This document shows positions 1 through 25,048 of a stretch of DNA of 38,834 bases, one piece after another; the stretch's first letter is position 1; each line of letters begins with the position of its first letter. Below the pieces are notes generated by a model. It was not told the DNA's origin. It was given only the letters and a program-made list of their open reading frames with translations, and made no database searches. The DNA is from Leptolyngbyaceae cyanobacterium MAG.088 (GTDB lineage Bacteria > Cyanobacteriota > Cyanobacteriia > Phormidesmidales > Phormidesmidaceae): assembly GCA_019634055.1 (NCBI GenBank), contig JAHQVZ010000093.1:1-38834 (forward strand), in the 5' to 3' direction. A program made the translations under genes and the position numbers.

Positions 1-812
1 ACTGTTACAGCTACCCAGCTTTGGTGGCCAACTGCTGCTAGAAACGTGCCCAGCCCACCAAAGAAGTAAATGCCTCCTTCTAAAACCTGTAGTTGCCGGT
101 CTAGTTGTTGGCTTTTGTTGCGATACCAGAAAAATTGGTCTCTTAAACGGAAGTGTAAATAGTCTTTAACAGTCAGGTCTGAAAATCCATCATCTCGAAC
201 AGACTGCCTTGAAGTTTGTTTCTCGATACCAAAAAGTTGATTCCAAAATGTTTTCCATAGCTTATTAATGAGCCTGATCACCAACACAATTATCGTTAGA
301 ATCCAACCAAGCTTGTAACGTGCTGGGGTTTCATCTTCATAGGGATTAAGGGCAGCTTGGTGCACCGCACTGCCTTTTAATCGTTCGCTAATAACTTTGA
401 TTTTGTGGGCTAAAACCTCATCTCGATTGTCTTTATATTCTCGAATATAAGGACAATAGCAATAGATTTCGCTCTTTAAGACTTCAGCGCTACCGCGTAA
501 GAGCAACCAATTATTGCCTCGATCGTGTTTGATCGCAAAAGCTAGCAGAGCAGATATTGTAATTGGTAGGATGATGAGAGAGTGTCGTAGTATGCCTGAA
601 GTGTATTGAAGCGTCTCTTGCATCTTACTAAGAGAAGCGTGAGCGACCGATAATGTCACAATGACGACGCTGAGAATTAATAATACATTCCGCAAAAATG
701 AAAATCTAGTCCGATAACGACTTGCATTTTTGCTGTATACATTATGGCGTTGCCATGCAAAGTTTAATAGGTTGCGATCAGGTGTGTCGGCGGATAAATT
801 TTCCTGACTCAT
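1..812 (-). CDS. SLATT/DUF4231-type two-TM membrane protein (3' end outside window)
   Basis: The minus-strand frame is open from an ATG to the window edge (270 residues, no stop), so the C-terminus is missing. Hydrophobic segments lie near residues 43-58 and 76-95, followed by a helical stretch with WLLLRGSAEVLKSEIY (about 102-117). Another hydrophobic segment is near 167-184, and a second unit begins at about 217 (DYLHFRLRDQFFWYRNKS) leading into a further hydrophobic segment. This layout matches the SLATT/DUF4231 group, apparently as two copies. SLATT domains were proposed as membrane pore-forming effectors paired with SMODS or SLOG nucleotide sensors. The start lies 29 bp after the LSDAT gene's stop, so the two form an operon. 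The family call rests on pattern recognition; the pore role is inference from the family. Confidence 0.72.
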   Translation of the reverse strand, partial: MSQENLSADTPDRNLLNFAWQRHNVYSKNASRYRTRFSFLRNVLLILSVVIVTLSVAHASLSKMQETLQYTSGILRHSLIILPITISALLAFAIKHDRGNNWLLLRGSAEVLKSEIYCYCPYIREYKDNRDEVLAHKIKVISERLKGSAVHQAALNPYEDETPARYKLGWILTIIVLVIRLINKLWKTFWNQLFGIEKQTSRQSVRDDGFSDLTVKDYLHFRLRDQFFWYRNKSQQLDRQLQVLEGGIYFFGGLGTFLAAVGHQSWVAVT

Positions 813-841
813 AACCTTATAGCTGATGGGAGTATGCGCTA

Positions 842-1642
842 TTAGATTACCTTAGGATTGAAGTGAGCCTGTAATTGTTTGCTCAAAAGATTTAATGGTT
901 TGCTTAAATTGAAGACTGATAGTTGACTTGGATAATAAGAGGCTGTTAGCTCTTGAATTATCGATTTATCAGAAGGGGGGATGCCATGGATAGTATTTGC
1001 GATATCATCTGCTAATCGTCCACTACCGGCAATGACGATTGTTGGCTGACCCACTGATAAGTTGAGGCGTAGGTCGGTCAGTGAAATTTTGCCACCGTTG
1101 ATCAAGATAGTAATGGAAGGGGATTGAGCTGCAAGGATAGCTGCACAATGCGCTAACCAAGGGGATTCGTTGCCCCAATTAATACCTGGAATTAGGGCGA
1201 AATGTGTGTGATGTTCTTCTAAATTAGTCAGCTCTCGGTTCTTAATATCAATGGCTAAGTTGAGGATGTGGCCTGGTAATTTAACTTTTGCTTTGGGTGC
1301 AACGCCTACTAAATTAAAACTTCCACCAATATGTCGGCGTGCCTGTCCCATCATTTGAATGACGCCGGCGTCTGTGCCACCATCAAAAACCGTAATTTTA
1401 TAGGCCTCTGCAATAGGAGCTAGGACTTTGGTAAATAGCTGGGCAACCCTGTTTCTACTTTCCTGACTCATATTGCTGGCCCCACCGATGACGACCATGC
1501 TGGGGGAAGGGGTCGTTAAGCCCAAGGCATCTAAAGATTTTGCATAGGTGAATGTAGCGGGCACATCCAGCACATGGGCTGTTTGGCCATTGGCAAACTT
1601 ATATCTGAAGACACCTGTAGCTTTGGTAGAGTTTTTAGTCAT
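842..1642 (-). CDS. LSDAT_prok (SLOG superfamily, TRPM-N-like) nucleotide-sensor protein
   Basis: This 266-residue protein carries the signature of the LSDAT branch of the SLOG Rossmann-like superfamily, known from the N-terminus of TRPM channels. Visible motifs are GGASNMS (53-59), VFDGGTDAG (85-93), LINGGKIS (180-187) and IAGSGRLADDIA (204-215); the last resembles the TRPM GSGR(A)(S/A)D loop. SLOG domains bind or process nucleotide-derived ligands. The gene is immediately upstream of a SLATT/DUF4231 membrane protein, the partner expected for a SLOG sensor with a membrane effector. The ATG is preceded by a modest TAGGA ribosome site. No signal peptide or TM segment is visible, so it is probably cytosolic. 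The ligand cannot be read from sequence. Confidence 0.82.
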   Translation of the reverse strand: MTKNSTKATGVFRYKFANGQTAHVLDVPATFTYAKSLDALGLTTPSPSMVVIGGASNMSQESRNRVAQLFTKVLAPIAEAYKITVFDGGTDAGVIQMMGQARRHIGGSFNLVGVAPKAKVKLPGHILNLAIDIKNRELTNLEEHHTHFALIPGINWGNESPWLAHCAAILAAQSPSITILINGGKISLTDLRLNLSVGQPTIVIAGSGRLADDIANTIHGIPPSDKSIIQELTASYYPSQLSVFNLSKPLNLLSKQLQAHFNPKVI

Positions 1643-2190
1643 ATATATTTCCTACCTAACGGTTCGCTTCAGATATAAGTTCTCTAAATGGATACCAAGA
1701 TAATATAGGTCCATAACATGCAAAATGCGCCAAGTGCCTAGGTGATTAATGATACAGAGCGCTATTATTGTCTAAAGTAAGAATGATATCCGGAAAATAC
1801 CATTAAACTTCTTTACATCCTGGTCGTAACCCGTAAACTTGACACAATTTTAACTGTCTCAAAAACTAATAAGTATTTATACGTTTAGTTCTATAGCCTC
1901 TAACTTCTCTTACTGAAGTCTTGGATTGTACTCTTTAAAGCAATTGAAACACTGTTTTGGTCAGTGGTATGTTTTGCGTACGCTGCTTGATACCTAAAAT
2001 TTTTGAGAGCTTTGTACTATTTCTAAATCAATACATGTGTATATGTCTTGATATTCTTTTGGCAGCAATAAAAACGTGCTTTATATCGAATTACACTGTG
2101 TATTTACGGAAAATAAGAGTATATACGCATATTTTAAATATCTCTAATGTATGTTTAAGAGGATGTCTGTAGATTGCTGAGTGAGTGTGT
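1643..2190. other. Divergent intergenic region of the immunity island
   Basis: This AT-rich spacer separates the LSDAT/SLATT operon from the divergent TIR-WD40 gene and should hold both promoters. A TTGACA hexamer occurs at 1839-1844 on the plus strand, but no well-spaced TATAAT-like partner is evident, so I do not call a promoter. A 71-codon TTG-started frame in the right half looks like noise. I see no repeat or RNA gene. Confidence 0.5.
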
Positions 2191-5100
2191 ATGAGTCTAA
2201 ATAATCCGATGACTCGACATAGGTTACGCCTTGCTTATCAGCGGCCTAAAGAAGATCGTCTCAGGCGTATTGCTGTGGTTAAGCCACGGGATAACGATAT
2301 TTTTATTAGTTATGCTGCTCAAGACGGGGAATTTGTTCGGTGTTTAGATAAGGCAATTCGGGATCAAGGCTTTGATCCCTGGATTGATTTTGACGATATT
2401 CCGAATTTTAAGCAGCTGTCGGATAATGAACATTATAAACAGCATATTAAAAATGGCATCTTGGGAGCAGATGTTTTTGTTTTAGTGCTTTCTGATGCAG
2501 CCCTTGCTTGCCAAAAAACGACAGAAGAGCTTAGATTAGCCCAACGCTTAAATAAGCTGATTGTTCTTTTAAGTAAGGATGTGAGTAATGAGTTTGAGCG
2601 TCTCAAGGATGAGTTTTATGATTTGCAGTATTTAGAGTGTGTTTCTCCAGTCATAGAGCAAGCATTTGAACAGGTTGCTCGTAATATTATTCATTTGCAG
2701 ACTTATATAAGACTGTTGGCACGGGCAAAAGAATGGGATCGACAGGGACGTCCTAATCAGTATTTGCTCACTCCGGAAGATCTGAAAGAGGTTAAAAAGC
2801 AAAAGCAGTGGATTGAAACTCACAAGTTGGGTGAGCAGTTTAAATTTACAGATTTGCAGAAAGTATTTTTAAAGACGGTTAATACGGTCCATGAAACGTC
2901 TGAATATTTTCGTAAAAGCCCACCTGATATTTTTATGTCTTATGCTCGTAGTAATCAGAAGTTTGTTGAGCAACTAAACAAGGCCCTTAAGAAAGATCGC
3001 TGGAGAGTGTGGATTGATCGAGACCGAATTCCAGTAGCTGCTAACTGGCGTACTGAAGCTGAGGAAGGGATACGTTATGCTCATACTGTGATTTTTGTTA
3101 TTTGTGCTGACTCTCTTATTTCAAACAATTGTCGATGGGAGTTTGAGAAGGCGAGAGAGTACAACAAGCGTATTATTCCGGTGATTAGTCATAGTGCTTA
3201 TGATCGTGATGTCTTCTATTCTATGGGGCTCCAGTCAGTACAATACGTGTCATTTGTTCGCAAGAACCAATCATTTGAAAAATCTTTGACGACGTTGTTG
3301 GATGCTCTTAAAGAAAATTTGGATGATCTAAAAACCTATAGAAGGCTCTTACTCAAGGCCTATGAGTGGTCTGAGAGCGATCGATTAGACACGCTTTTAA
3401 TGTCTCGCCATGAGTATAAAGGCATTGAAAATTGGTGTAAACAGCGTAAAAGTGTACAAAAAAACGATAATCGTGAGTTGGAGCCTCTTCTCTCTCGTCA
3501 GAAAGAGTATATTCGAGCAAGCCAACGTTATTTAGCTTTGCAACGTAAGCGCCAGAGCTTATTTTTATCTGCGACAGTGGGGATTGTTAGTGGTCTTTCC
3601 TTTCTATTGTTGACTACAACATTTAGTGAAATTAGAGCACTGGTGAGATCTCTGGATGATCTCAATGGCTTAGATGCATTGGTGACAGGATTGCAGGCAG
3701 GTCAACGGGTTCAGCGTCATGCCTTTTTTATTGATTTGTTAGGTTCTAGATTAGATGTTAGGGCAACAACAGCACTGCATAGAACAGCACTTGAACTGAG
3801 AGAGGTGAATCGTTTTGAGGAGCATGGTGGGAAGGTTTTTGCTGCTGTTTTTAGTGCGGATGGTCAACAACTAGTCTCAGTAGGACGTGATAAAACGGTT
3901 CGCTTCTGGAATTTGAGTGACTATGAAACAATCGAAAAAAAACAAGAAGATATTTCATCTTGCCCAGCAGCTGAGAAGAGAAATATTGGATTTCATGGGG
4001 ATCCTATTATCACGGTTGACTATAGTTCGGATCAAGAATATGTAGCGACTGGAGATATAGAGGGATTTGTGAAAATATGGACATGTTCTGGTCAACTCTA
4101 CAAAACATTGCCTAAAAGACATCAATTTCTAGATTCTGACGATAAAATTCAGGGGGCTCGAGTGAGTCGTGTCTCATTTAGTCCAGGTGGTTATTATCTG
4201 GCATCTGCTGGAACAGATAGTCAAATTTTTCTCTGGACTCGAGGTGATGATTTTACAAATCCGATTAAGCTTGAACATCCCAAACAATCTGACAACTCAA
4301 AACGGCCTGAGATTACTGCTATGGCCTTTAGCCCTAACGGGAAGTATCTTGCGTCTGCTGATTCACAAGGGCATGTCTATTGGTGGGAATTAAAGCATCA
4401 GCCTAACAAACCGCCTGCAGTTGAGCTTCTAGATGTTTTTCAATACAAAGCACCTGAAGGTCCACTTCCTCCTCATCTGACAACTGTAACATTTAGTCCG
4501 AATAGTTCTTTATTGGCCTTTACAGGTCTGAGAGCTTCTATCCAAGTTCAGGATTTAAAGCAAGAAACTGGGCGATTGTTAACAGGTCACGATGGTTTTG
4601 TTTATAGTCTCTTATTTAGCTCTGATGGAAAAACGTTGGCATCTGCCAGTGCTGATGCTACGGTAAAACTTTGGAATCCTAGAAATGAACAGGGTAAGGA
4701 ATTAGTGCATACGCTAAGGGGACATCAAGGCCCAGTATATCGATTGGCATTTGGACCGCAGGATGATGTTCTGGCTACCGGTGGAAAAGATGGGATTATA
4801 CGGTTATGGTTGCGGGAAAAGGGTATTCAAATAGATTCTTTTGAAGGTCATAAGGATGAAATTTCTAGTCTTGCTTTTGCTCCTAAACCATCTTTAGGCT
4901 ATACGACACCCATCTTGGCTTCTGCTAGTGATGATGGCAGCATCAGGTTGTGGAATCTTGATAATCCGATTCAGCGATTACCTCATAATAATAATGTCTT
5001 TGATGTAGCATTTGGCAATGAAGGGAGAGTAATTGCTTCAGGGGGGATTTTTACAGTCAAATTGTGGCGACCGGATGGTACCTCAAAGTCTGACATTGAG

Positions 5101-6192
5101 TTTGCTAAGAATGTTAGGGTTTGGGCTGTTGACTATAGTCCTAATGGAGGAGAAATTTTGGCTGCAGGGGGTTCCAATGGGCAAATCAAACTTTGGAAGC
5201 CAGATATTGATACTCAAGCTCCTTTCCAAAGTCTGGATGCTCATGCTGCGTTAGAAGATTCGGAGATTCTTGAGCAAGGAGTTTTAGATCTTAGCTTTAA
5301 CCATGATGGTCAGTGGTTAGCGTCAGTTGGAACCGATAAAACGCTTAAATTATGGCGGGTTTCTAGCGAGGGTCTCTATAGATATATAACACTACCGCAT
5401 CCTAATGATGTGACAGCTGTCGGATTTAGTCCAAATAATCAATTTTTAGTTACTGGTACTCGGGCAAGAAGCACTAGTGATAAGCGAGGACTTTTTCTAT
5501 GGAAAATAACCCAGCAGTCGATGGCTAACAAGAGAATAGTTCTTAGCAAAACTGAGAGTCCTCTCAAAAAACATGAGGGAAGTATTTTATCAATCGCAAT
5601 TCAACCAAAGGGGAAAAGTTTAATTGCTTCAGGGGGAGAAGATGCAACCATTAACCTGTGGGAGCCGTCAGGAAAATGGCTAAGAACTCTTAGGGGACAT
5701 GGTGACGCGATCACTCAGGTAAGTTTTAGTGCTGATGGGGAATTTTTAGCCTCATCTAGCAAAGATGGCACTATTAGACTCTGGACTGCTCAAGGAGAGC
5801 TAATTTCGATGCTAGAACGACACAATCGTTCTGTATCTAGTGTGGAGTTTGGACCTAAGTCAAACAATATTCTGGCATCATCCAGTGCAAGTGAGGATGT
5901 TTTGATTTGGGACTTATGGAAGGTGCCGACTTCTGAGCTAACCGATCAAAACCAAAAGAGTGTAGTCTTGGATGTTTTGATGTCTGATGGTTGTGCAACC
6001 ATATTGCCGTTTCTAGAAAATTATTATCCTTCTTCTGATCCTGCAAAAGCTAATAAGAAGAATACTGATAAAACAATTAGGATTAAAAAACCTATAACCG
6101 CCAGTAATGAGGACAAAGATTGGCTGAAAGATATTGAGAAATTGAAAGATTTCTGTAGTAGATCCTCAATTTTGCCTAAAGTAATAAGGTGA
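2191..6192 (+). CDS. TIR-TIR-TM-WD40 repeat protein, putative NADase-type immune receptor
   Basis: A 1333-residue multidomain protein. TIR domain 1 spans about 34-140 (DIFISYAAQDGEFV; Glu pair near 112). TIR domain 2 spans about 246-370 (DIFMSYARSNQKFVEQL; NNCRWEFEKA with the candidate catalytic Glu near 317). A linker of the kind found in cyanobacterial STAND/WD40 proteins follows (YEWSESDRLDTLL...EYIRAS), then one hydrophobic segment at about 456-478. About 15 WD40 repeats fill residues 541-1247, enough for two seven-bladed propellers. The last ~85 residues are polar. TIR domains in bacterial defence cleave NAD+; WD40 propellers bind proteins. No NTPase domain is visible between them. An in-frame GTG lies 6 bp upstream; I prefer the ATG, though no strong ribosome site decides it. 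NADase activity is inferred. Confidence 0.88.
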   Translation: MSLNNPMTRHRLRLAYQRPKEDRLRRIAVVKPRDNDIFISYAAQDGEFVRCLDKAIRDQGFDPWIDFDDIPNFKQLSDNEHYKQHIKNGILGADVFVLVLSDAALACQKTTEELRLAQRLNKLIVLLSKDVSNEFERLKDEFYDLQYLECVSPVIEQAFEQVARNIIHLQTYIRLLARAKEWDRQGRPNQYLLTPEDLKEVKKQKQWIETHKLGEQFKFTDLQKVFLKTVNTVHETSEYFRKSPPDIFMSYARSNQKFVEQLNKALKKDRWRVWIDRDRIPVAANWRTEAEEGIRYAHTVIFVICADSLISNNCRWEFEKAREYNKRIIPVISHSAYDRDVFYSMGLQSVQYVSFVRKNQSFEKSLTTLLDALKENLDDLKTYRRLLLKAYEWSESDRLDTLLMSRHEYKGIENWCKQRKSVQKNDNRELEPLLSRQKEYIRASQRYLALQRKRQSLFLSATVGIVSGLSFLLLTTTFSEIRALVRSLDDLNGLDALVTGLQAGQRVQRHAFFIDLLGSRLDVRATTALHRTALELREVNRFEEHGGKVFAAVFSADGQQLVSVGRDKTVRFWNLSDYETIEKKQEDISSCPAAEKRNIGFHGDPIITVDYSSDQEYVATGDIEGFVKIWTCSGQLYKTLPKRHQFLDSDDKIQGARVSRVSFSPGGYYLASAGTDSQIFLWTRGDDFTNPIKLEHPKQSDNSKRPEITAMAFSPNGKYLASADSQGHVYWWELKHQPNKPPAVELLDVFQYKAPEGPLPPHLTTVTFSPNSSLLAFTGLRASIQVQDLKQETGRLLTGHDGFVYSLLFSSDGKTLASASADATVKLWNPRNEQGKELVHTLRGHQGPVYRLAFGPQDDVLATGGKDGIIRLWLREKGIQIDSFEGHKDEISSLAFAPKPSLGYTTPILASASDDGSIRLWNLDNPIQRLPHNNNVFDVAFGNEGRVIASGGIFTVKLWRPDGTSKSDIEFAKNVRVWAVDYSPNGGEILAAGGSNGQIKLWKPDIDTQAPFQSLDAHAALEDSEILEQGVLDLSFNHDGQWLASVGTDKTLKLWRVSSEGLYRYITLPHPNDVTAVGFSPNNQFLVTGTRARSTSDKRGLFLWKITQQSMANKRIVLSKTESPLKKHEGSILSIAIQPKGKSLIASGGEDATINLWEPSGKWLRTLRGHGDAITQVSFSADGEFLASSSKDGTIRLWTAQGELISMLERHNRSVSSVEFGPKSNNILASSSASEDVLIWDLWKVPTSELTDQNQKSVVLDVLMSDGCATILPFLENYYPSSDPAKANKKNTDKTIRIKKPITASNEDKDWLKDIEKLKDFCSRSSILPKVIR

Positions 6193-6639: not shown

Positions 6640-7152
6640 CTACTCATGCCAGGAGTGAGGCATGATATTGCGCTTGATGTATAAAGGATGACTCGGTTGG
6701 CCAGAATGATTACGGGCTAAGCAATAGAGTTTTTGACGATGACGGCTCAGCAGTTCTAACACTGTTTGGGCACGGTTGAGGGTAGTGCCCCAGTTGCCCC
6801 AGGCTAAAATGGCCTTTTCTGCTGATGTAATTGCTTCTAGCAGATAACGATTATTTTCAGGACCGATCGGATCGGTGACTGTTTTCAGTACTGATGGGTG
6901 GGGTGTGCGATAGGCAAATAGATTGACGACATTCAACTGGTTATATCCCCAGCGTTGGGCAAACTGTGAGCAAGCCCGAATCGTTGGATCGTCTTGTTCT
7001 GCATCCGCTGTACTGGGGTTAAGCATAATAAACGTCACTTGATGAGCAGGCTCATTAACCTCTGCCCAAGAGCGAGTAAGACAATAACGGTAGCGCTGTG
7101 AACTATCGAAGATAGCCGAGCCATTGGAGGAATTCGTTACAATCGTTAACAT
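6640..7152 (-). CDS. DUF1643 family protein
   Basis: This 170-residue protein matches DUF1643 in length and core motifs: RYRYCLTRSW (about 20-29), FIMLNPSTAD (about 41-50), DDPTIRACSQFAQRWGY (54-70), VVNLFAYRTP and DPIGPENN. The C-terminal half (AILAWGNWGT, LYCLARNHSGQPSHPLYI) also fits the family. The biochemical function of DUF1643 is not known to me; it is small, soluble and widespread. The ATG start is followed directly by the conserved region and there is no signal peptide. It stands alone, between the immunity island and a divergent MFS gene, and shows no visible operon partner. Confidence 0.85.
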   Translation of the reverse strand: MLTIVTNSSNGSAIFDSSQRYRYCLTRSWAEVNEPAHQVTFIMLNPSTADAEQDDPTIRACSQFAQRWGYNQLNVVNLFAYRTPHPSVLKTVTDPIGPENNRYLLEAITSAEKAILAWGNWGTTLNRAQTVLELLSRHRQKLYCLARNHSGQPSHPLYIKRNIMPHSWHE

Positions 7153-13400: not shown

Positions 13401-15218
13401 ATGATGACTGTTGATTATCAACCGAATAGGGCTACTGAAGACTCTGTTGTTTCTCAGCAGCCACCCTGTTTGGATATTACTGTTGTTATTCCTACCTATA
13501 ACGGTGCTGAACGTATTGCTCAAGTGCTTGGTGCTCTCAGGCTACAAGAGGATACGGATTGTATTACTTGGGAAGTAATTGTTTGTGACAATAATAGTTG
13601 CGATCGCACCGCCGACATCGTTGCAGACTATCAACAAAGTTGGCTTCAGGATGTTGCTTTACGATACTGTTTTGTTGCGGAACAAGGAGCAGCTTTTGCT
13701 AGACAGCGTGGTGTCGTTGAAGCCCATGGTGAAATTGTTGCCTTTTTGGATGATGACAACATTCCAGCCCATGATTGGCTGAAAAATGTCTATGACTTTG
13801 CTGCATCGTACCCTCAGGCCGGAGCCTTTGGCAGCCAAATTCATGGTGATTTCCAAGGTGATTTACCCGAAGGGTTTGGACATATTGCCTGCTTTTTAGC
13901 AATTGTGGAGCGAGGCAATCAACCCCACCTATATAAACCAGAGTCAAAGATTTTACCGCCAGCTGCTGGCGTGGCTGTACGTCGATCAGCCTGGCTTGAG
14001 GCCGTGCCAGAACGTTTGTTTCTAAACCATAAAGGTAAATCTGCCGGTCTTGCCAGCGAAGATTTAGAGGCGATGCTACATATTCAAAAAGCCGGTTGGG
14101 AAATTTGGTATAACTCTGACATGGTGGTGACCCATATAATACCGGGTAAGCGCCTGCAGCAAGACTATTTGGTTACCTTGTTGCGTTGTGTAGGGCTGAG
14201 TAAATTCTATATCCGCTGGTTGGGCACCAAAGATTGGCAGCGATTCTTTAAAGTTCCTGCCTATGTTGCTAACGATCTGCGCAAGCTGGCACTACACTAT
14301 CTGAAAAATGGTCCTCGTACCCAATTGAATACGGTTGATGCCTGCGAAAGGTCTCTATTAGCCAGCACTGTAGTTAGTCCTGCTTTTTTGCTGCGCAAGG
14401 CATTTCATGATTTTTGGCAAAGACGTATCGATAATATGCAACTGCCTGAACGTCAGCAGTGGCTGCAGCGATTGACCAATGCTCTTGAAAACTGTCAGCT
14501 AGACTTGTATCAACAGGAAATCATTTTTCTCGGGGCAGCTACTTCAGCTATCGAGGATACTCACGGAGAGGCTACTCCCCAGTTTGAAATCTTACTAAGA
14601 TTGGGGCCAAGTTTGTCAGGTCAGTTACCAGCTTCACCTGCATCGTTCTTTCCTACAGCACAGCGCTATGGTTTGATGCGAACGCTTGACCGTCGTGTGA
14701 TTCAGCAGGTTTATCAGACTTTGACATCCCAACGATCAGATGCTATTTATTCTGTAAATCTCTCGTCAGCTAGTGTTAGTGATCCTAGTTTCTCTCACTT
14801 TTTAGAAGAACAACTGCGATATTACCACGTGTATCCTGAGCACCTGTGTTTTGAGATTTCTGAGCATGTTGTGATTGATGCCTGGCAGCAAGTGCAAGAA
14901 CTGATTACGCAGATGCAACGATTGGGATTTCGGGTGACGATTGACGAAGTTAAAAATGTATCAGCCATTGACAAATATATGACTCAGCTGTCTGTTGATT
15001 GTCTCAAGTTGAGTCAAGATGTTGTTAATACTCCCGATCGCTTAGAGTTGGTTTTACCTGCCTGTTTAAAGCTAGGTAAGCAAAACAGGGTTCAACTGGT
15101 TGCTAAAGGGGTAGAAACATCAACAAGATTAGAGCAATTGCAGACCTTGGGTATTCAATATATTCAAGGGTATCAACTTTCCAAACCGATTCCGTTTACT
15201 GAAGGTATTCGTGTGTAG
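13401..15218 (+). CDS. HpsE-like GT2 glycosyltransferase fused to a degenerate EAL domain
   Basis: The 605-residue protein joins two domains. Residues ~25-345 are a GT2 glycosyltransferase like HpsE of hormogonium polysaccharide synthesis: VVIPTYNGAE (28-37), VIVCDNNS (59-66), the nucleotide-sugar/metal motif FLDDDN (115-120), QIHGDF, and EDLEAMLHIQKAGWEIWY (220-237). Residues ~372-605 are an EAL fold: FEILLR (395-400), VNLSS, FEISE (484-488), then TIDEVKNV where active enzymes have DDFGTG, LKLS in place of LKID, AKGVE in place of AEGVE, and IQGYQLSKP. Loss of several metal ligands argues against c-di-GMP hydrolysis and for ligand sensing or a structural role. The fusion suggests c-di-GMP control of sugar transfer, which is inference. 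No clear ribosome site; two ATGs in tandem. Confidence 0.9.
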   Translation: MMTVDYQPNRATEDSVVSQQPPCLDITVVIPTYNGAERIAQVLGALRLQEDTDCITWEVIVCDNNSCDRTADIVADYQQSWLQDVALRYCFVAEQGAAFARQRGVVEAHGEIVAFLDDDNIPAHDWLKNVYDFAASYPQAGAFGSQIHGDFQGDLPEGFGHIACFLAIVERGNQPHLYKPESKILPPAAGVAVRRSAWLEAVPERLFLNHKGKSAGLASEDLEAMLHIQKAGWEIWYNSDMVVTHIIPGKRLQQDYLVTLLRCVGLSKFYIRWLGTKDWQRFFKVPAYVANDLRKLALHYLKNGPRTQLNTVDACERSLLASTVVSPAFLLRKAFHDFWQRRIDNMQLPERQQWLQRLTNALENCQLDLYQQEIIFLGAATSAIEDTHGEATPQFEILLRLGPSLSGQLPASPASFFPTAQRYGLMRTLDRRVIQQVYQTLTSQRSDAIYSVNLSSASVSDPSFSHFLEEQLRYYHVYPEHLCFEISEHVVIDAWQQVQELITQMQRLGFRVTIDEVKNVSAIDKYMTQLSVDCLKLSQDVVNTPDRLELVLPACLKLGKQNRVQLVAKGVETSTRLEQLQTLGIQYIQGYQLSKPIPFTEGIRV

Positions 15219-19792: not shown

Positions 19793-22700
19793 ATGGGTTC
19801 TCAATCTTCTGTACTTGAGTATCAGTTAATGGCTGCTTTTCTGAAGCAGGAGTCTATTGTTGATTGCGTTGTTCGTTTTCAACATCGTGAACCGCCTTTA
19901 CAACCAGTGATTGTTGCTTATGTTGTGATTTTAGGGATCTTTAGTGAGCAGCGTCTTAAGGCCCATTTACAAGCAGAGTTTCCCGATGAGCTTGTTGCTA
20001 GTCTACGTATTGTGCCTATTAACCATATTCCTCTGACAGATGCGGGCGAGATTGATCATGTGGCACTGGCAAAACTTCCCCTATTCGATGCAGATCTGTT
20101 GGAGTGTTGGCAGCGCTATTGGGTATCTAAGCCTGAGGTAGAACAGGTGGCGATGAGCGTAGAGGCGAATGCTGGTAGTTTAGATATTTTGCATCTTTCA
20201 GATATGTTGCCAGATATGCAACCTGTTCAACGGTTGTTGTCTGAGCTGCCTAGGAGGGTAGATGAGCCTGCATCGTCTGAGTCGTCAGTGGTGGTCGCTG
20301 CGCACTCTGACGTTTTAGCCATTGCTAAAGGTCCTGCTTTGCACTTGGATGAAGCATTGCCTCTGAATCTAGCTATATCTTTGCGTCGCACGGCTCAGGC
20401 ATGCCCTTTACAAGGTATTACTTACATTCAGAATGATGACACTCATCGGGTTCAACGTTATCCTGCGCTGTTATCTCGGGCAGAAAGTATTTTGTTTGGC
20501 CTGCAACAGTTGGCTTTAGCACCTAAAGCGAAGATAATTTTTCAGTTTGATGAGAATCAGGACTATATTCCTGCTTTTTGGGCTTGTATGTTGGGAGGGT
20601 TTGTTCCTGTCCCAGTTGCGATCGCACCTATCCATGAAGCAGGTAATCCAGTTGTTCAAAAGCTATGTAATATCTGGCAGCAGTTAGAGAAACCACTCAT
20701 TTTTACGAATAAGCGAGTGGGTAGTCAATTGACAAAGCTCAGTGTCGATCTGAATCTTGATGGCTTCCAGATTCAAACCCTGGAAACATTGCCAGAACAG
20801 GGTAATATCGCACCTACCAGCGAAATGGATCCGGCGGGTTATCACAGTCATCCTGATGATCTAGCCGTGTTGTTATTTACATCAGGCAGTACAGGACAAC
20901 CCAAAGGCGTGGGACTTACCCACCACAATATCTTAAGTAATGTGGCCGCCAGTGCCCAGGTGAATAATTTTACCAGTCAGGATATTTCCCTTAACTGGTT
21001 GCGTTTAGATCATGTGGGTAGCCTGGTGAGATGTTCTATTCGGGATGTATATGTAGGGTCTCATCAAATTCATGCTCCAGCTGAACTAGTCTTAGAAAAT
21101 CCGCTGACGCTGCTTGATTGGATTGAACGCTATCGAGTCACCTTTGCCTGGGCACCTAACTTTGCACTAGGGTTAATGAATGATCGTGCCAGTGACATTC
21201 AGCAGCGCCAATGGGATTTGTCGTCATTGAAGTCAATGCTGAGTGTGGCTGAGGCGATTGTTCCAAAAACCGCACAGCGTTTTGTTACTCTCTTCTCACC
21301 CTTTGGTTTAACCCCAGAGAAAATGCATGCCGCTTGGGGCATGTCTGAAACCTGTGCAGCTGTAACGTTTTCTCATAATTATTTATGTTCTTTGTCTGCT
21401 GAGGCGACTGCAGTGGAGGTCGGTGCTCCAACGGCAGGGTTTCAAATGCGAATTGTAGATGCTCAAGATAATGTCTTGTCAGAAAACGCAACGGGCCGTT
21501 TACAAATTAAAGGTCCTATGGTGCTCTCCGGGTATTATCAAAATCCTAGTCTCAATCAAGAGGCCTTTACCCAGGATGGATGGTTTAAGACAGGGGATCT
21601 TGGGTATTTAAATAATGGCCGACTAACGGTTACTGGTCGTGAGAAAGACATTATTATTATTAACGGTCTCAACCATTACTGCTATGAGATTGAGTCTCTT
21701 GTGGAGACCCTTGATAGTGTAGAGATTTCTTATACGGTTGCCTGTGGAATTCGTCAGGTGGGGCAAAACACTGATTTATTGCTTATTTTCTTTAATCCGA
21801 CGGAGAGTGATGACACTTGCCTAGGGCAGCTCTTGCGAAAAATTCGAAGTCAAGTAGTTCGTGCTCTTGGTATTAGCCCAGACTTTTTGGTCCCTGTGCA
21901 GAAGCACGAAGTTCCTAAGACATCTATTGGAAAGTTGCAGCGCTTAAAGCTTAAACAACAATTTGAAGCCGGTCATTTTGACGAACGACTGAAACAGATA
22001 GATCTATTATTGGCTAATGATAAGACTCTGCCTGATTGGTTTTATGAGAAAGTTTGGCTATCTAAGATTAGTCCTCCTCTGCTAAAACAACTTGTCGGCA
22101 ACACGATTATTTTTACGGATGACTTGGGCTTAGGCGAGATTCTGGCGCAGAAATTATCAGGGCAGGGGGTTCAGTGCTTTTTAGTACAGCCAGGGCCTGA
22201 ATTTAAGCAATTAACACCCAATCGATATGAGATTAATCCGCAGAACTCTGATGACTATCGTCAGTTATTGACTGTTTTCTTGGAGCAGCATCAGTCAGTG
22301 ACGCAAATTCTTCATCTTTGGCAATATCGCGAGTGGACGCCTGTTGAGTCCTTGGCAAGGCTAGAGGAAGATCAATTAAGTGGTTTGTACAGTATCTTAT
22401 GGCTAGTACAGGCATTAGCTGATTGCCAAGCAGCTACTAGCGCTGCTGACTCTATGCGCTTGCAAGTAGTGGCTAACAATGTACAGGCAACGGTCCCCCA
22501 TGAGTCAGTTGCCTATGAAAAAAGTCCACTTTTGGGCCTAATTAAGACTTTTCCTAAAGAGATTCCCTGGTTGGACTGTCGTCACCTTGATTTAGAGCTG
22601 ACCACAGTGGAAGAGAATGCCGCTTATGTATGGGATGAGCTTCAGGTATTACAAGCAGAACGCGAGGTTGTGGTTCGGCGTGGTGTGAGGCGAGTTCCGC

Positions 22701-25048
22701 GCTTAAGGTCTGCACAGTTAGTGGGGCAAACGACCCAGGATATTCCGCTTCAGACCGGGGGCCTATATCTTATTAGCGGTGGATTAGGGGGAGTCGCATT
22801 TGAAATTGCTCAATATCTGATGCGTCATCATCAGGCTCATTTGTTACTGTTAGGCCGTTCTCCCCTGCCTAATCGATCAGAATGGCCATCTTATTTAGAC
22901 ACTGATGATAAAGTAGCAACTCAGATTCGTAATCTGATGACCCTAGAAGCTATTAATTGCGATCGCGTTTGCTATAAGGCAGTTGATATCTGTGATTTTG
23001 AGCAGCTAGCAGCCACGGTTAATGATGTACAAGCTTCCTGGCAATTGTCCTTAAACGGTATTTTTCATCTAGCAGGTATTGCTCCAGAAAGAGTATTGCT
23101 ACAAGAGAATCAGGTGTCACTAGCAGCCACATTACAGCCAAAAATGCAAGGAACATGGTGTTTACATCAGTTGGCAAAACGTCAGCCAGATTGTCTTTTT
23201 GTGAGCCTATCATCTGTGACCAATTTATTTGGTGGTGCTACGGTTGGAGGCTATGCAGTTGCCAATAGCTTTTTAGAAAGCTTCAGTCAATACCAGCGAG
23301 TAGATGCGAACCTGCAAAGTTATTGTTTGGGGTCTAGTACCTGGTCACAAATTGGCGTCAATAAAGGCTATCAGGGGACGGATGTCCGCCGCGCTCAGGG
23401 ACAGATGGCCATGTCAGCCCAACAAGGATTGAATTCTTTGTTGATTGCTCTGAAATATCGTAAACAGCAATTAATTTTTGGTCTGGATGGCACTAAGCCA
23501 ACTATTCAATGCTATCAAAATGAATCTTTGACATTGATGCATCAGCTTAAGGCCTATGGAACTCTGTCTGCCTCTGCCCAAACCTCAGTTATGGAAACCG
23601 CATCTCTGGTAGATAGTCGGTTTGGTACGACAAGTCAGTGCGCATTTACAGTGTTGTCTAAACTTCCCTTAACAATTTCAGGTGAACTGGATCGTGAACA
23701 ACTCGAAATTCTAGTGAAAGGAAGCAGTCCTAGCCAAGTTCTACCGAGTAACCCAACTGAGCAAGCATTAGCCGACATTTGGTGCGATGTTTTAGATGTA
23801 GATGCTGTTGGCATTCATGATAACTTTTTTGAGTTAGGCGGTACGTCTATTTTGGCGGCACGACTTTTTTTGAAAATTGAACAATCATTTGGTCGCATGT
23901 TGCCGTTAGCAACCTTGTTTGAATCATCTACGATAGAGCAACTTGCAACAGTTTTAAGTCAGTCAGACGGGACCCATGATTGGTCTTCACTAGTCCCTAT
24001 TCGTAGGCAAGGGCACAAGAAACCTTTCTTTCTTGTGCATGCTGGCTTTGGCGATGTGGTGACTTTCGAAACCCTGGTGCGATGCCTTAAGAACGATCGG
24101 CCTTTTTATGCCTTGCGTCCAGTTGATTTAGACGGTGTGAGTGAGCCATTAGAGACAATTGAGGCGATGGCCGCCCACTACGTTACTGAATTATTGCAGC
24201 ATCAGCCCCAAGGACCGTACTTAATAGGTGGTCAGTGTACCGGAGGAGTTGTTGCCTATGAAATGGCTCAGCAGTTGAGGCAACAGGGGCATGAAATAGA
24301 GCTTTTAGGATTGTTTGACACCACCTTTCCAGAGTACAAAAATTATTGGCTACCTCGGGTAAGATATTATTTCCATAAACCTGCTTTTAAGCCAGGTCCG
24401 CTAGATTTTTGGCATAACGCTTCCTTAGCACTTTACTGGTGGCGTAGACTTGGCTATGCTATCGAATTTTACTCACGTAGGATACCTAAAACGCAATTTT
24501 CCCCATGGTTTCTTGCTAGGGTTCAAGGGTATGCAGAAAGACTACTGAAAGTCTTTAATCGTCAGACCGGTTTAGAAAACAAGAAGCCGCAACGTTTAAC
24601 AGAATCTGCCCGGACGTCTCAATCTGATGAAATCACGAATGAAGACGCCCCACAATCCAGTGCCAATGACCCTGTTTCGAGTCTGTCAAGTTCAGCCATT
24701 GCCTCAAAGGACGTAGAGCAACGTAATGCGTATATTAAAGATCGATTTTTTGAGGTGTTTTTACGGGCTCAATCTGTGTACACACCTCAGCCATATGATG
24801 GGAATGTTGATTTTTTCTTGTCAACTATGGACACGTATGTGCCAACTGCAAGACCCTATTCTCTTGCTTCCTTTAGAGCAAGGAATCCAGTAACTGATAT
24901 GAAGGATCTTCTCTGGGGATGGGATACATGTGTAGAGCATGAATTTAGAGTGCATGCGTTTGAAAGTCCACATCAAGAGATGTTGGATGAACCGTATGTT
25001 GAGCGTTTGGTGGAAAAACTTCAACCTATTCTTGATCGCTATTCTTAA
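19793..25048 (+). CDS. Adenylation-ketoreductase-carrier-thioesterase megasynthase (NRPS/PKS-like)
   Basis: A 1751-residue enzyme. Residues ~15-97 look like a detached adenylation C-terminal subdomain (IPLTDAGEIDHVAL, with Glu where the catalytic Lys is expected). Residues ~185-725 are an adenylation/acyl-AMP ligase domain: LLFTSGSTGQPKG (~360), WGMSETCAA, GWFKTGDLG (~595), and a terminal TSIGKLQRLK with Lys (~712). Residues ~740-1225 are a ketoreductase with NADPH loop SGGLGGV (~993) and SLSS/YAVAN catalytic residues (~1153). A carrier domain (~1310-1385) has Ser in ELGGTS (~1351). Residues ~1400-1745 are a thioesterase with GGQCTGG (Cys nucleophile, ~1481) and His near 1726. No condensation or ketosynthase domain is present. 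A-KR-carrier order suggests activation of an alpha-keto acid and reduction to a hydroxy acid, as in AerA-type loading modules; the substrate is inferred. Confidence 0.9.
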   Translation: MGSQSSVLEYQLMAAFLKQESIVDCVVRFQHREPPLQPVIVAYVVILGIFSEQRLKAHLQAEFPDELVASLRIVPINHIPLTDAGEIDHVALAKLPLFDADLLECWQRYWVSKPEVEQVAMSVEANAGSLDILHLSDMLPDMQPVQRLLSELPRRVDEPASSESSVVVAAHSDVLAIAKGPALHLDEALPLNLAISLRRTAQACPLQGITYIQNDDTHRVQRYPALLSRAESILFGLQQLALAPKAKIIFQFDENQDYIPAFWACMLGGFVPVPVAIAPIHEAGNPVVQKLCNIWQQLEKPLIFTNKRVGSQLTKLSVDLNLDGFQIQTLETLPEQGNIAPTSEMDPAGYHSHPDDLAVLLFTSGSTGQPKGVGLTHHNILSNVAASAQVNNFTSQDISLNWLRLDHVGSLVRCSIRDVYVGSHQIHAPAELVLENPLTLLDWIERYRVTFAWAPNFALGLMNDRASDIQQRQWDLSSLKSMLSVAEAIVPKTAQRFVTLFSPFGLTPEKMHAAWGMSETCAAVTFSHNYLCSLSAEATAVEVGAPTAGFQMRIVDAQDNVLSENATGRLQIKGPMVLSGYYQNPSLNQEAFTQDGWFKTGDLGYLNNGRLTVTGREKDIIIINGLNHYCYEIESLVETLDSVEISYTVACGIRQVGQNTDLLLIFFNPTESDDTCLGQLLRKIRSQVVRALGISPDFLVPVQKHEVPKTSIGKLQRLKLKQQFEAGHFDERLKQIDLLLANDKTLPDWFYEKVWLSKISPPLLKQLVGNTIIFTDDLGLGEILAQKLSGQGVQCFLVQPGPEFKQLTPNRYEINPQNSDDYRQLLTVFLEQHQSVTQILHLWQYREWTPVESLARLEEDQLSGLYSILWLVQALADCQAATSAADSMRLQVVANNVQATVPHESVAYEKSPLLGLIKTFPKEIPWLDCRHLDLELTTVEENAAYVWDELQVLQAEREVVVRRGVRRVPRLRSAQLVGQTTQDIPLQTGGLYLISGGLGGVAFEIAQYLMRHHQAHLLLLGRSPLPNRSEWPSYLDTDDKVATQIRNLMTLEAINCDRVCYKAVDICDFEQLAATVNDVQASWQLSLNGIFHLAGIAPERVLLQENQVSLAATLQPKMQGTWCLHQLAKRQPDCLFVSLSSVTNLFGGATVGGYAVANSFLESFSQYQRVDANLQSYCLGSSTWSQIGVNKGYQGTDVRRAQGQMAMSAQQGLNSLLIALKYRKQQLIFGLDGTKPTIQCYQNESLTLMHQLKAYGTLSASAQTSVMETASLVDSRFGTTSQCAFTVLSKLPLTISGELDREQLEILVKGSSPSQVLPSNPTEQALADIWCDVLDVDAVGIHDNFFELGGTSILAARLFLKIEQSFGRMLPLATLFESSTIEQLATVLSQSDGTHDWSSLVPIRRQGHKKPFFLVHAGFGDVVTFETLVRCLKNDRPFYALRPVDLDGVSEPLETIEAMAAHYVTELLQHQPQGPYLIGGQCTGGVVAYEMAQQLRQQGHEIELLGLFDTTFPEYKNYWLPRVRYYFHKPAFKPGPLDFWHNASLALYWWRRLGYAIEFYSRRIPKTQFSPWFLARVQGYAERLLKVFNRQTGLENKKPQRLTESARTSQSDEITNEDAPQSSANDPVSSLSSSAIASKDVEQRNAYIKDRFFEVFLRAQSVYTPQPYDGNVDFFLSTMDTYVPTARPYSLASFRARNPVTDMKDLLWGWDTCVEHEFRVHAFESPHQEMLDEPYVERLVEKLQPILDRYS

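Follow-up and report, generated by a model that had tools for sequence, protein, structure and literature searches.

Three genes for a putative TIR-driven signalling module

At the start of the window, by which we mean the whole 38,834-bp stretch analysed here (contig JAHQVZ010000093.1 of Leptolyngbyaceae cyanobacterium MAG.088), neighbouring genes encode a SLATT-type membrane protein, an LSDAT (TRPM-type SLOG) sensor and a receptor that combines two TIR domains, a transmembrane (TM) segment and WD40 repeats. On balance, we lean towards the view that these genes form a signalling module of TIR receptor, nucleotide sensor and membrane effector, which probably serves abortive infection or regulated death. 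The positions that a first-pass annotation of this DNA had given for the three genes were borne out. The coordinates of the open reading frames (ORFs) also confirmed the 29-bp spacing of the LSDAT/SLATT operon and the divergent orientation of the TIR gene, and profile searches matched all four families that had been named (LSDAT_prok, SLATT/DUF4231, TIR and WD40). The LSDATs of Leptolyngbya sp. PCC 7375 and Adonisia turfae, which belong to the same cyanobacterial group, are 78% identical to that of the window. When aligned across the six orthologues of the genus, the intergenic stretch that separates LSDAT from the divergent TIR gene had a mean column identity of 57%. Shared regulation through this region was considered and set aside, as the alignment gave no interpretable element.

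Table 1 Features of the SLATT, LSDAT and TIR-WD40 genes in the window (counts out of 68 refer to the LSDAT set described below)
Feature	Position	Strand	Remarks
LSDAT (TRPM-type SLOG) sensor, 266 aa	842..1642	-	PF18171 LSDAT_prok, E 1.7e-58, residues 47-220
LSDAT Trp156, at the position of TRPM2 Tyr295 (clamps ADP-ribose)	1175..1177	-	Trp in 68/68
LSDAT Arg209, at the position of TRPM2 Arg358 (meets phosphates)	1016..1018	-	Arg in 68/68
Intergenic region between divergent LSDAT and TIR genes	1643..2184	.	542 bp
TIR-TIR-TM-WD40 receptor gene, 1335 aa	2185..6192	+	GTG start at 2185; in-frame ATG at 2191 also possible
TIR1, residues 36-168, probably non-catalytic	2290..2688	+	Catalytic Glu position unconserved in genus
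TIR2, residues 246-375, candidate NADase domain	2920..3309	+	Glu319 codon 3139-3141
Predicted TM segment, residues 459-477	3559..3615	+	Hydropathy 2.03
WD40 repeat region, about residues 542-1263, putative ligand-sensing part	3808..5973	+	Limits approximate
Gene for SLATT-type membrane protein, cut at 3' end	3..812	-	270 aa visible; DUF4231 and start of SLATT_1
DUF4231 (SLATT-like) domain, residues 23-132, two hydrophobic segments	417..746	-	E 1.9e-8
First part of second SLATT domain, residues 218-262 (positions 1-45 of the 122 in SLATT_1)	27..161	-	E 1.3e-8

Sensor, receptor and membrane protein

The LSDAT protein scored 197.6 bits against PF18171 (cut-off 25.4). LSDAT models alone were above the cut-off in its 266 residues, with no TRP ion-channel domain. 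Its nearest solved relatives are the TRPM channels, and the LSDAT model matches the N-terminal sensor region of TRPM2, which points to a TRPM-type SLOG fold. Homology to the MHR1/2 region of TRPM2 extends over residues 26-249, the predicted fold is the same, and the positions of Tyr295 and Arg358 are occupied by Trp and Arg (Table 1). Unlike TRPM2, however, LSDAT is a separate protein without a TRP channel domain, does not keep Arg302 and has SLATT as its membrane partner. The kinship of the TRPM sensor with bacterial proteins is already in print (PMC13143021, in the part seen). No ligand of the bacterial LSDAT family turned up in the literature searched.

In the receptor, the proposed TIR-TIR-TM-WD40 architecture stood as far as its parts are concerned, namely two stretches matching TIR_2 (whole-protein E 3e-37), a single TM segment and 13 WD40 stretches (6.6e-105, plus related propeller models). 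Of the two TIR domains, TIR1 looks inactive: its catalytic Glu position reads E, R, G, Q, E and G across the six genus orthologues. The Cys-x-x-Glu motif of TIR2, on the other hand, is kept in all six. Glu319 aligns with a Glu of AbTIR that we take to be the catalytic residue, and Glu is found in 62 of 72 aligned TIRs from all fetched loci. A hydrophobic segment lies behind the last TIR in 30 of 34 TIR proteins. In the window its flanks hold six Lys/Arg residues on the TIR side vs two on the WD40 side, and a Lys/Arg excess on the TIR side was seen in 24 of the 30. This bias favours a cytoplasmic TIR part and an extracytoplasmic WD40 part, short of proof. In the TIR-TM proteins of loci L048 and L082, WD40 is replaced by CHASE2, an extracytoplasmic sensor domain. 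As side observations, the TIR-TM-WD40 protein of g3 has an N-terminal winged-helix-like stretch (L067:8200-8586; TrmB 3.3e-5, under the cut-off), and in L076, weak winged-helix matches fall in a 112-aa ORF that stands by itself ahead of a shorter TIR protein.

The SLATT protein had been described as a plain two-TM protein, which proved inaccurate: the visible part contains DUF4231 followed by the start of a second domain, SLATT_1, with three hydrophobic segments in all. Both domains exceeded their Pfam cut-offs (DUF4231, 35.1 vs 24.7 bits; SLATT_1, 35.3 vs 26.3 bits), and the NCBIfam SLATT_1 model gave 46.1 bits (cut-off 41). The gene is cut because base 1 of the window is the first base of the contig (C46). 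Complete relatives that adjoin LSDAT and carry DUF4231 followed by SLATT_1 include proteins of 409-453 aa. SLATT is a predicted nucleotide-responsive membrane effector (PMC7159879, in the part seen).

Linkage of LSDAT, SLATT and TIR genes across genomes

LSDAT was found in 36 of 63 genomes sampled from the order and in 29 of 386 genomes sampled across the phylum, 26 of these outside the order. Neighbourhoods were scored with local profiles of TIR, SLATT, SLATT_1 and LSDAT. From 70 matching ORFs, the 68 of at least 200 aa were kept and two pieces in L081 were dropped. L039-L042 were omitted because they repeat fetched genomes, and a fragment in G040 was not among the fetched loci. In the final set of 68, the order accounts for 40 LSDATs, genomes outside the order for 27 and the Nostoc locus L043 for one. 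With proximity limits of 600 bp for SLATT and 1.6 kb for TIR, SLATT was near LSDAT in 40/68 cases, TIR in 25/68, both in 13/68 and at least one of them in 52/68. Outside the order, SLATT lay within the limits at 20 of the 27 LSDATs.

The expectation that the trio would recur in other genomes was confirmed by these neighbourhoods. A divergent TIR-TM-WD40 gene is present in all six members of the window LSDAT clade, interrupted in one of them. Rows on one strand in the order LSDAT, SLATT, TIR were found in six other genera (L071, L074, L077, L095, L102 and L103; the row of L095 has a small ORF in between, and the TIR ORF of L103 is short). In seven loci of g3/g11, a TIR-TM-WD40 gene follows 3' of LSDAT on the same strand at a distance of about 70-340 bp. 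By a quick method that counts gains and losses together, at least eight changes of the TIR label are needed on the LSDAT tree.

The proximity of TIR genes greatly exceeds chance expectation. TIR lies within 1.6 kb of 20 of 42 LSDATs in the order vs 0.39 expected, and in 7 of 10 cases vs 0.375 expected after collapsing by genus, under a model that uses per-genome TIR domain counts (an upper bound for genes) with hand-entered inputs, places them uniformly, ignores relatedness and scores the G040 LSDAT fragment as a miss. The 4.2-Mb genome G010 has a single TIR match at E up to 1e-5, and this match falls inside an LSDAT-SLATT-TIR-TM-WD40 row.

For an island control, the 252 neighbour ORFs of at least 90 aa within 2 kb of LSDAT were clustered on their first 700 residues. 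Counted by genus label (n = 27, with L043 under its own label), SLATT families occurred beside 15 and 5 labels, TIR beside 12 and the next family beside 4. A mere defence island is therefore an unlikely explanation, because only SLATT and TIR recur widely within 2 kb.

Beyond the cyanobacteria, our view comes from plasmid records, four of which matched; two of these are LSDAT-SLATT fusions. A single protein on a Chlorohelix (Chloroflexota) plasmid and another on a Hymenobacter (Bacteroidota) plasmid combine LSDAT, DUF4231 and SLATT_1, in a domain order that equals the transcription order of the LSDAT and SLATT genes in the window. Such fusion into one gene in two other phyla supports a functional pairing of LSDAT and SLATT. 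The Chlorohelix plasmid also carries a TIR-NACHT-FGE gene 1.2 kb from the fusion, on the opposite strand and with two small genes between, and no TIR match to the local profiles was found in the Hymenobacter plasmid stretch. For the two Embleya loci, L113 and L126, the table lists no annotated features; at L113, neither SLATT nor TIR was found with the local profiles or with Pfam on four of its proteins. A tblastn search of 50,697 phage records for phage carriage gave zero matches, and a scan of viral contigs gave 65 pattern matches with no relative among them.

It should be noted that a second LSDAT locus occurs in the genus (G000:C327, that is L044, and L046, L048, L049, L051 and L056). Five of the six have an upstream SLATT gene of 509-530 aa in the same orientation. 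A five-TIR receptor gene is located 3.5-3.8 kb from LSDAT in L048, L049, L051 and L056, past SLATT and one further gene (an M15 peptidase in L049), and the contigs of L044 and L046 end short of this position. The five-TIR receptor of L048, the sole one scanned, has a CHASE2 match. Elsewhere, TPR-S proteins adjoin LSDAT in L009 and L065 with no SLATT or TIR match nearby, and the one in L065 has a guanylate-cyclase-type domain; TPR-S is possibly another input to the same LSDAT sensor. At L105:7493-12043, LSDAT is followed by a patatin-like phospholipase and then by a receptor with three TIRs, a TM segment and WD40, a possible case of the membrane effector being swapped from SLATT to a phospholipase.

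Proposed mechanism

We propose that the C-terminal WD40 propellers, probably across the membrane, would sense a trigger, and that this would cluster the TIR domains. TIR2 could then cleave NAD+, as its conserved Glu suggests, with TIR1 serving as its structural partner; the product would be an ADP-ribose-type molecule, for example ADP-ribose (ADPR) itself, one of its cyclic isomers or a conjugate of it. Homology, the conserved residues in part of the ligand pocket and the predicted TRPM2 MHR1/2 fold all suggest that LSDAT may bind this signal, and ligand-bound LSDAT would open or assemble the SLATT membrane protein, acting as a putative pore. The whole would resemble a TRPM2 channel whose parts are encoded by different genes and which has a receptor of its own to make the signal. 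Its core would be LSDAT-SLATT, and the TIR receptor would be one among several exchangeable inputs. A similar circuit, running from a ligand sensed by WD40 through a TIR-made signal and LSDAT to SLATT in the membrane, had been imagined in the first-pass annotation. The ADP-ribose-sensor fold of TRPM2 predicted for LSDAT supports it; the two-TM description of SLATT does not hold, and TIR1 is probably inactive.

The linkage to TIR suggests ADP-ribose derivatives as the ligand class of LSDAT, and thus points to a class that can be tested together with an output, namely membrane permeability through SLATT. More tentatively, the module may be pictured as a bacterial version, divided among several genes, of the NAD-ADP-ribose-TRPM2 axis of animals, in which a TM TIR receptor whose extracytoplasmic part is WD40 or CHASE2 would produce an ADP-ribose-type messenger and a free-standing TRPM2-type sensor would gate a SLATT pore for immune permeabilisation, the sensor later having been fused to the TRP channel in early eukaryotes. 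If true, the repertoire of TIR signalling would gain a membrane effector, and the sensor that opens TRPM2 in animals would have a bacterial setting.

Contrary observations and alternative explanations

Several observations weigh against the proposed module, and they are considered here together with the alternatives on which they bear. LSDAT-SLATT could be self-contained and receive its ligand from elsewhere in the cell, with TIR-WD40 as a separate system that lies nearby through the clustering of conflict genes. In line with this, SLATT occurs without TIR within 1.6 kb at 27/68 LSDATs, many of them in family f7, of which some LSDATs group with the Nostoc locus L043. The genomes are also rich in TIR (17 matches in that of the window, 57 in that of a relative). 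As further points against the module, neither SLATT nor TIR is near 16/68 LSDATs (five near contig ends), and TIR adjoins LSDAT in just 5 of the 27 outside the order. The first-pass annotation had reasoned that the link would be fortuitous if the LSDAT/SLATT pair were common without the TIR gene. This is partly the case, yet TIR is found within the limit at more than a third of the LSDATs as given above. Furthermore, no other family recurs beside LSDAT as TIR does, the arrangement is kept within clades (divergent in the genus, same-strand in g3/g11), and the lone TIR match of G010 adjoins LSDAT-SLATT. We thus consider a self-contained LSDAT-SLATT pair unlikely. Because of the 27 loci that have SLATT without TIR, we regard SLATT as the more constant partner and TIR as a frequent, exchangeable input.

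Alternatively, TIR itself could be the effector, acting by NAD+ depletion, with LSDAT-SLATT regulating it through sensing of ADP-ribose build-up or NAD loss, or relieving the stress. TIR occurs without SLATT within 600 bp at 12/68 LSDATs, four of them near a contig end, which leaves eight LSDAT-TIR loci away from contig ends without an adjacent SLATT. TIR matches also outnumber LSDAT genes in most of these genomes, which means that many of the TIR proteins have to function with no LSDAT beside them. However, an unlinked SLATT was found in six of the seven g3/g11 genomes in which LSDAT-TIR has no adjacent SLATT, nested in the clade of LSDAT-linked SLATTs (some of these SLATTs were under the Pfam cut-off and confirmed by local profile, and the tree was a quick one with some long branches). 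The LSDAT-SLATT fusions, moreover, point to a sensor-effector pair. TIR as the effector is therefore quite unlikely in our judgement.

The state of SLATT in the genus raises the question of decay. No complete SLATT gene was seen in the genus: the contig end cuts it in the window and in L054, and the contigs of L047 and L052 stop at the LSDAT end facing SLATT, leaving SLATT off the contig. In both genus genomes with the orthologous locus on a long contig the gene is damaged, being split by an IS1595-type insertion in Leptolyngbya PCC 7375 and reduced to 78-83 residues in Adonisia. The TIR-WD40 gene of Leptolyngbya PCC 7375 is also interrupted, by ORFs with weak transposase matches; this insertion and these ORFs were seen in the orthologous locus L039 (same genome as L050). 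One possible reading of such damage and contig ends across the genus is frequent loss of a costly effector; another is decay of the locus, with a trio that no longer works there. We give decay only a small chance, as the LSDAT and TIR2 motifs of the window are intact and the TIR-WD40 gene has 1303-1335 aa in 5/6 orthologues; it would in any case be compatible with a working module in other genera, where uninterrupted SLATT partners are present (e.g., L057, L059-L062 and L080).

Least probable is that LSDAT makes or destroys the signal, like the LOG-type SLOG glycosidases: several of its glycine and acidic residues are invariant (68/68) and nucleotide-cleaving enzymes are found among SLOG-class domains (PMC9503650, in the part seen), but its nearest solved relatives are the TRPM channels, the TRPM2 domain is a ligand sensor, and fusion to membrane domains fits a sensor.

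Other points concern single steps of the proposed module. TRPM2 Arg302 contacts the ribose of the adenosine; in its place the window LSDAT has Leu163, and Leu, Ile, Met or Gln is found there in 68/68; the ligand may thus be other than linear ADPR, for example a cyclic isomer. The Lys/Arg bias around the TM segment is reversed in 2/30 and equal in 4/30 TIR proteins. The visible part of SLATT has no sequence match to any solved structure (phmmer, E up to 1), and its pore-forming action is taken from a published prediction (PMC7159879, in the part seen).

Comparison with known systems

Burroughs et al. (2015) reportedly proposed LSDAT adjoining a SLATT membrane protein as a nucleotide-triggered effector. 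The window agrees with LSDAT-SLATT and SLOG/SMODS-SLATT modules in that its LSDAT adjoins a SLATT membrane protein, and differs in the link to a TIR-TM-WD40 receptor and in the tandem DUF4231-SLATT_1 partner. TIR-SLATT gene pairs are known from Firmicutes phages, and TIR and SLATT from GAP1-N1 GTPase systems (PMC9503650 and PMC7159879, in the parts seen). These systems share with the window the presence of TIR and SLATT in one neighbourhood, but the parts seen describe no LSDAT mediator, and hosts and receptor architecture are different. No LSDAT-TIR or LSDAT-SLATT-TIR system is described in the titles and abstract starts among the matches listed; a mention by Burroughs et al. (2015) is possible.

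In Thoeris, a TIR product activates the effector, which is SIR2, TM-Macro and caspase-like in types I, II and IV, respectively (PMC12847820, in the part seen). Like Thoeris as described there, the window has a TIR gene beside genes for a predicted ADP-ribose-type nucleotide sensor and an effector, and type II is also membrane-acting. In contrast to Thoeris, the sensor is a TRPM-type LSDAT rather than ThsA SLOG or Macro, the partner is SLATT rather than SIR2, TM-Macro or a caspase-like protease, and the TIR domains belong to a putative membrane-spanning WD40 receptor. No ThsA-type effector was found beside the window TIR gene, which is flanked by LSDAT and SLATT and by DUF1643, MFS and MoaC. 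The NCBIfam model of Thoeris type III ThcB4 gave 30.4 bits on the TIR gene and did not reach its cut-off of 220. PADLOC had no match for the window SLATT, LSDAT or DUF1643; on the TIR gene, its ThsB reached 1.8e-10 at best (the PADLOC table gives no cut-off), behind HEAT-ARM_XIII (6.7e-37, over WD40) and PDC-S66 (2.8e-16). With Thoeris effectors absent and ThcB4 far under its cut-off, the trio is neither Thoeris nor a TRPM channel, although it likely works like the former and has the latter's kind of sensor.

Neighbouring genes

The DUF1643 gene past the TIR receptor gene lies on the opposite strand (window 6640-7152). Further along, a gene at 13401-15218 encodes a family 2 glycosyltransferase domain joined to an EAL domain, and three further glycosyltransferase genes come after it. 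The gene at 19793-25048 encodes a 1751-aa biosynthetic enzyme with AMP-binding, ketosynthase-like N-terminal, KR, carrier and thioesterase domains.

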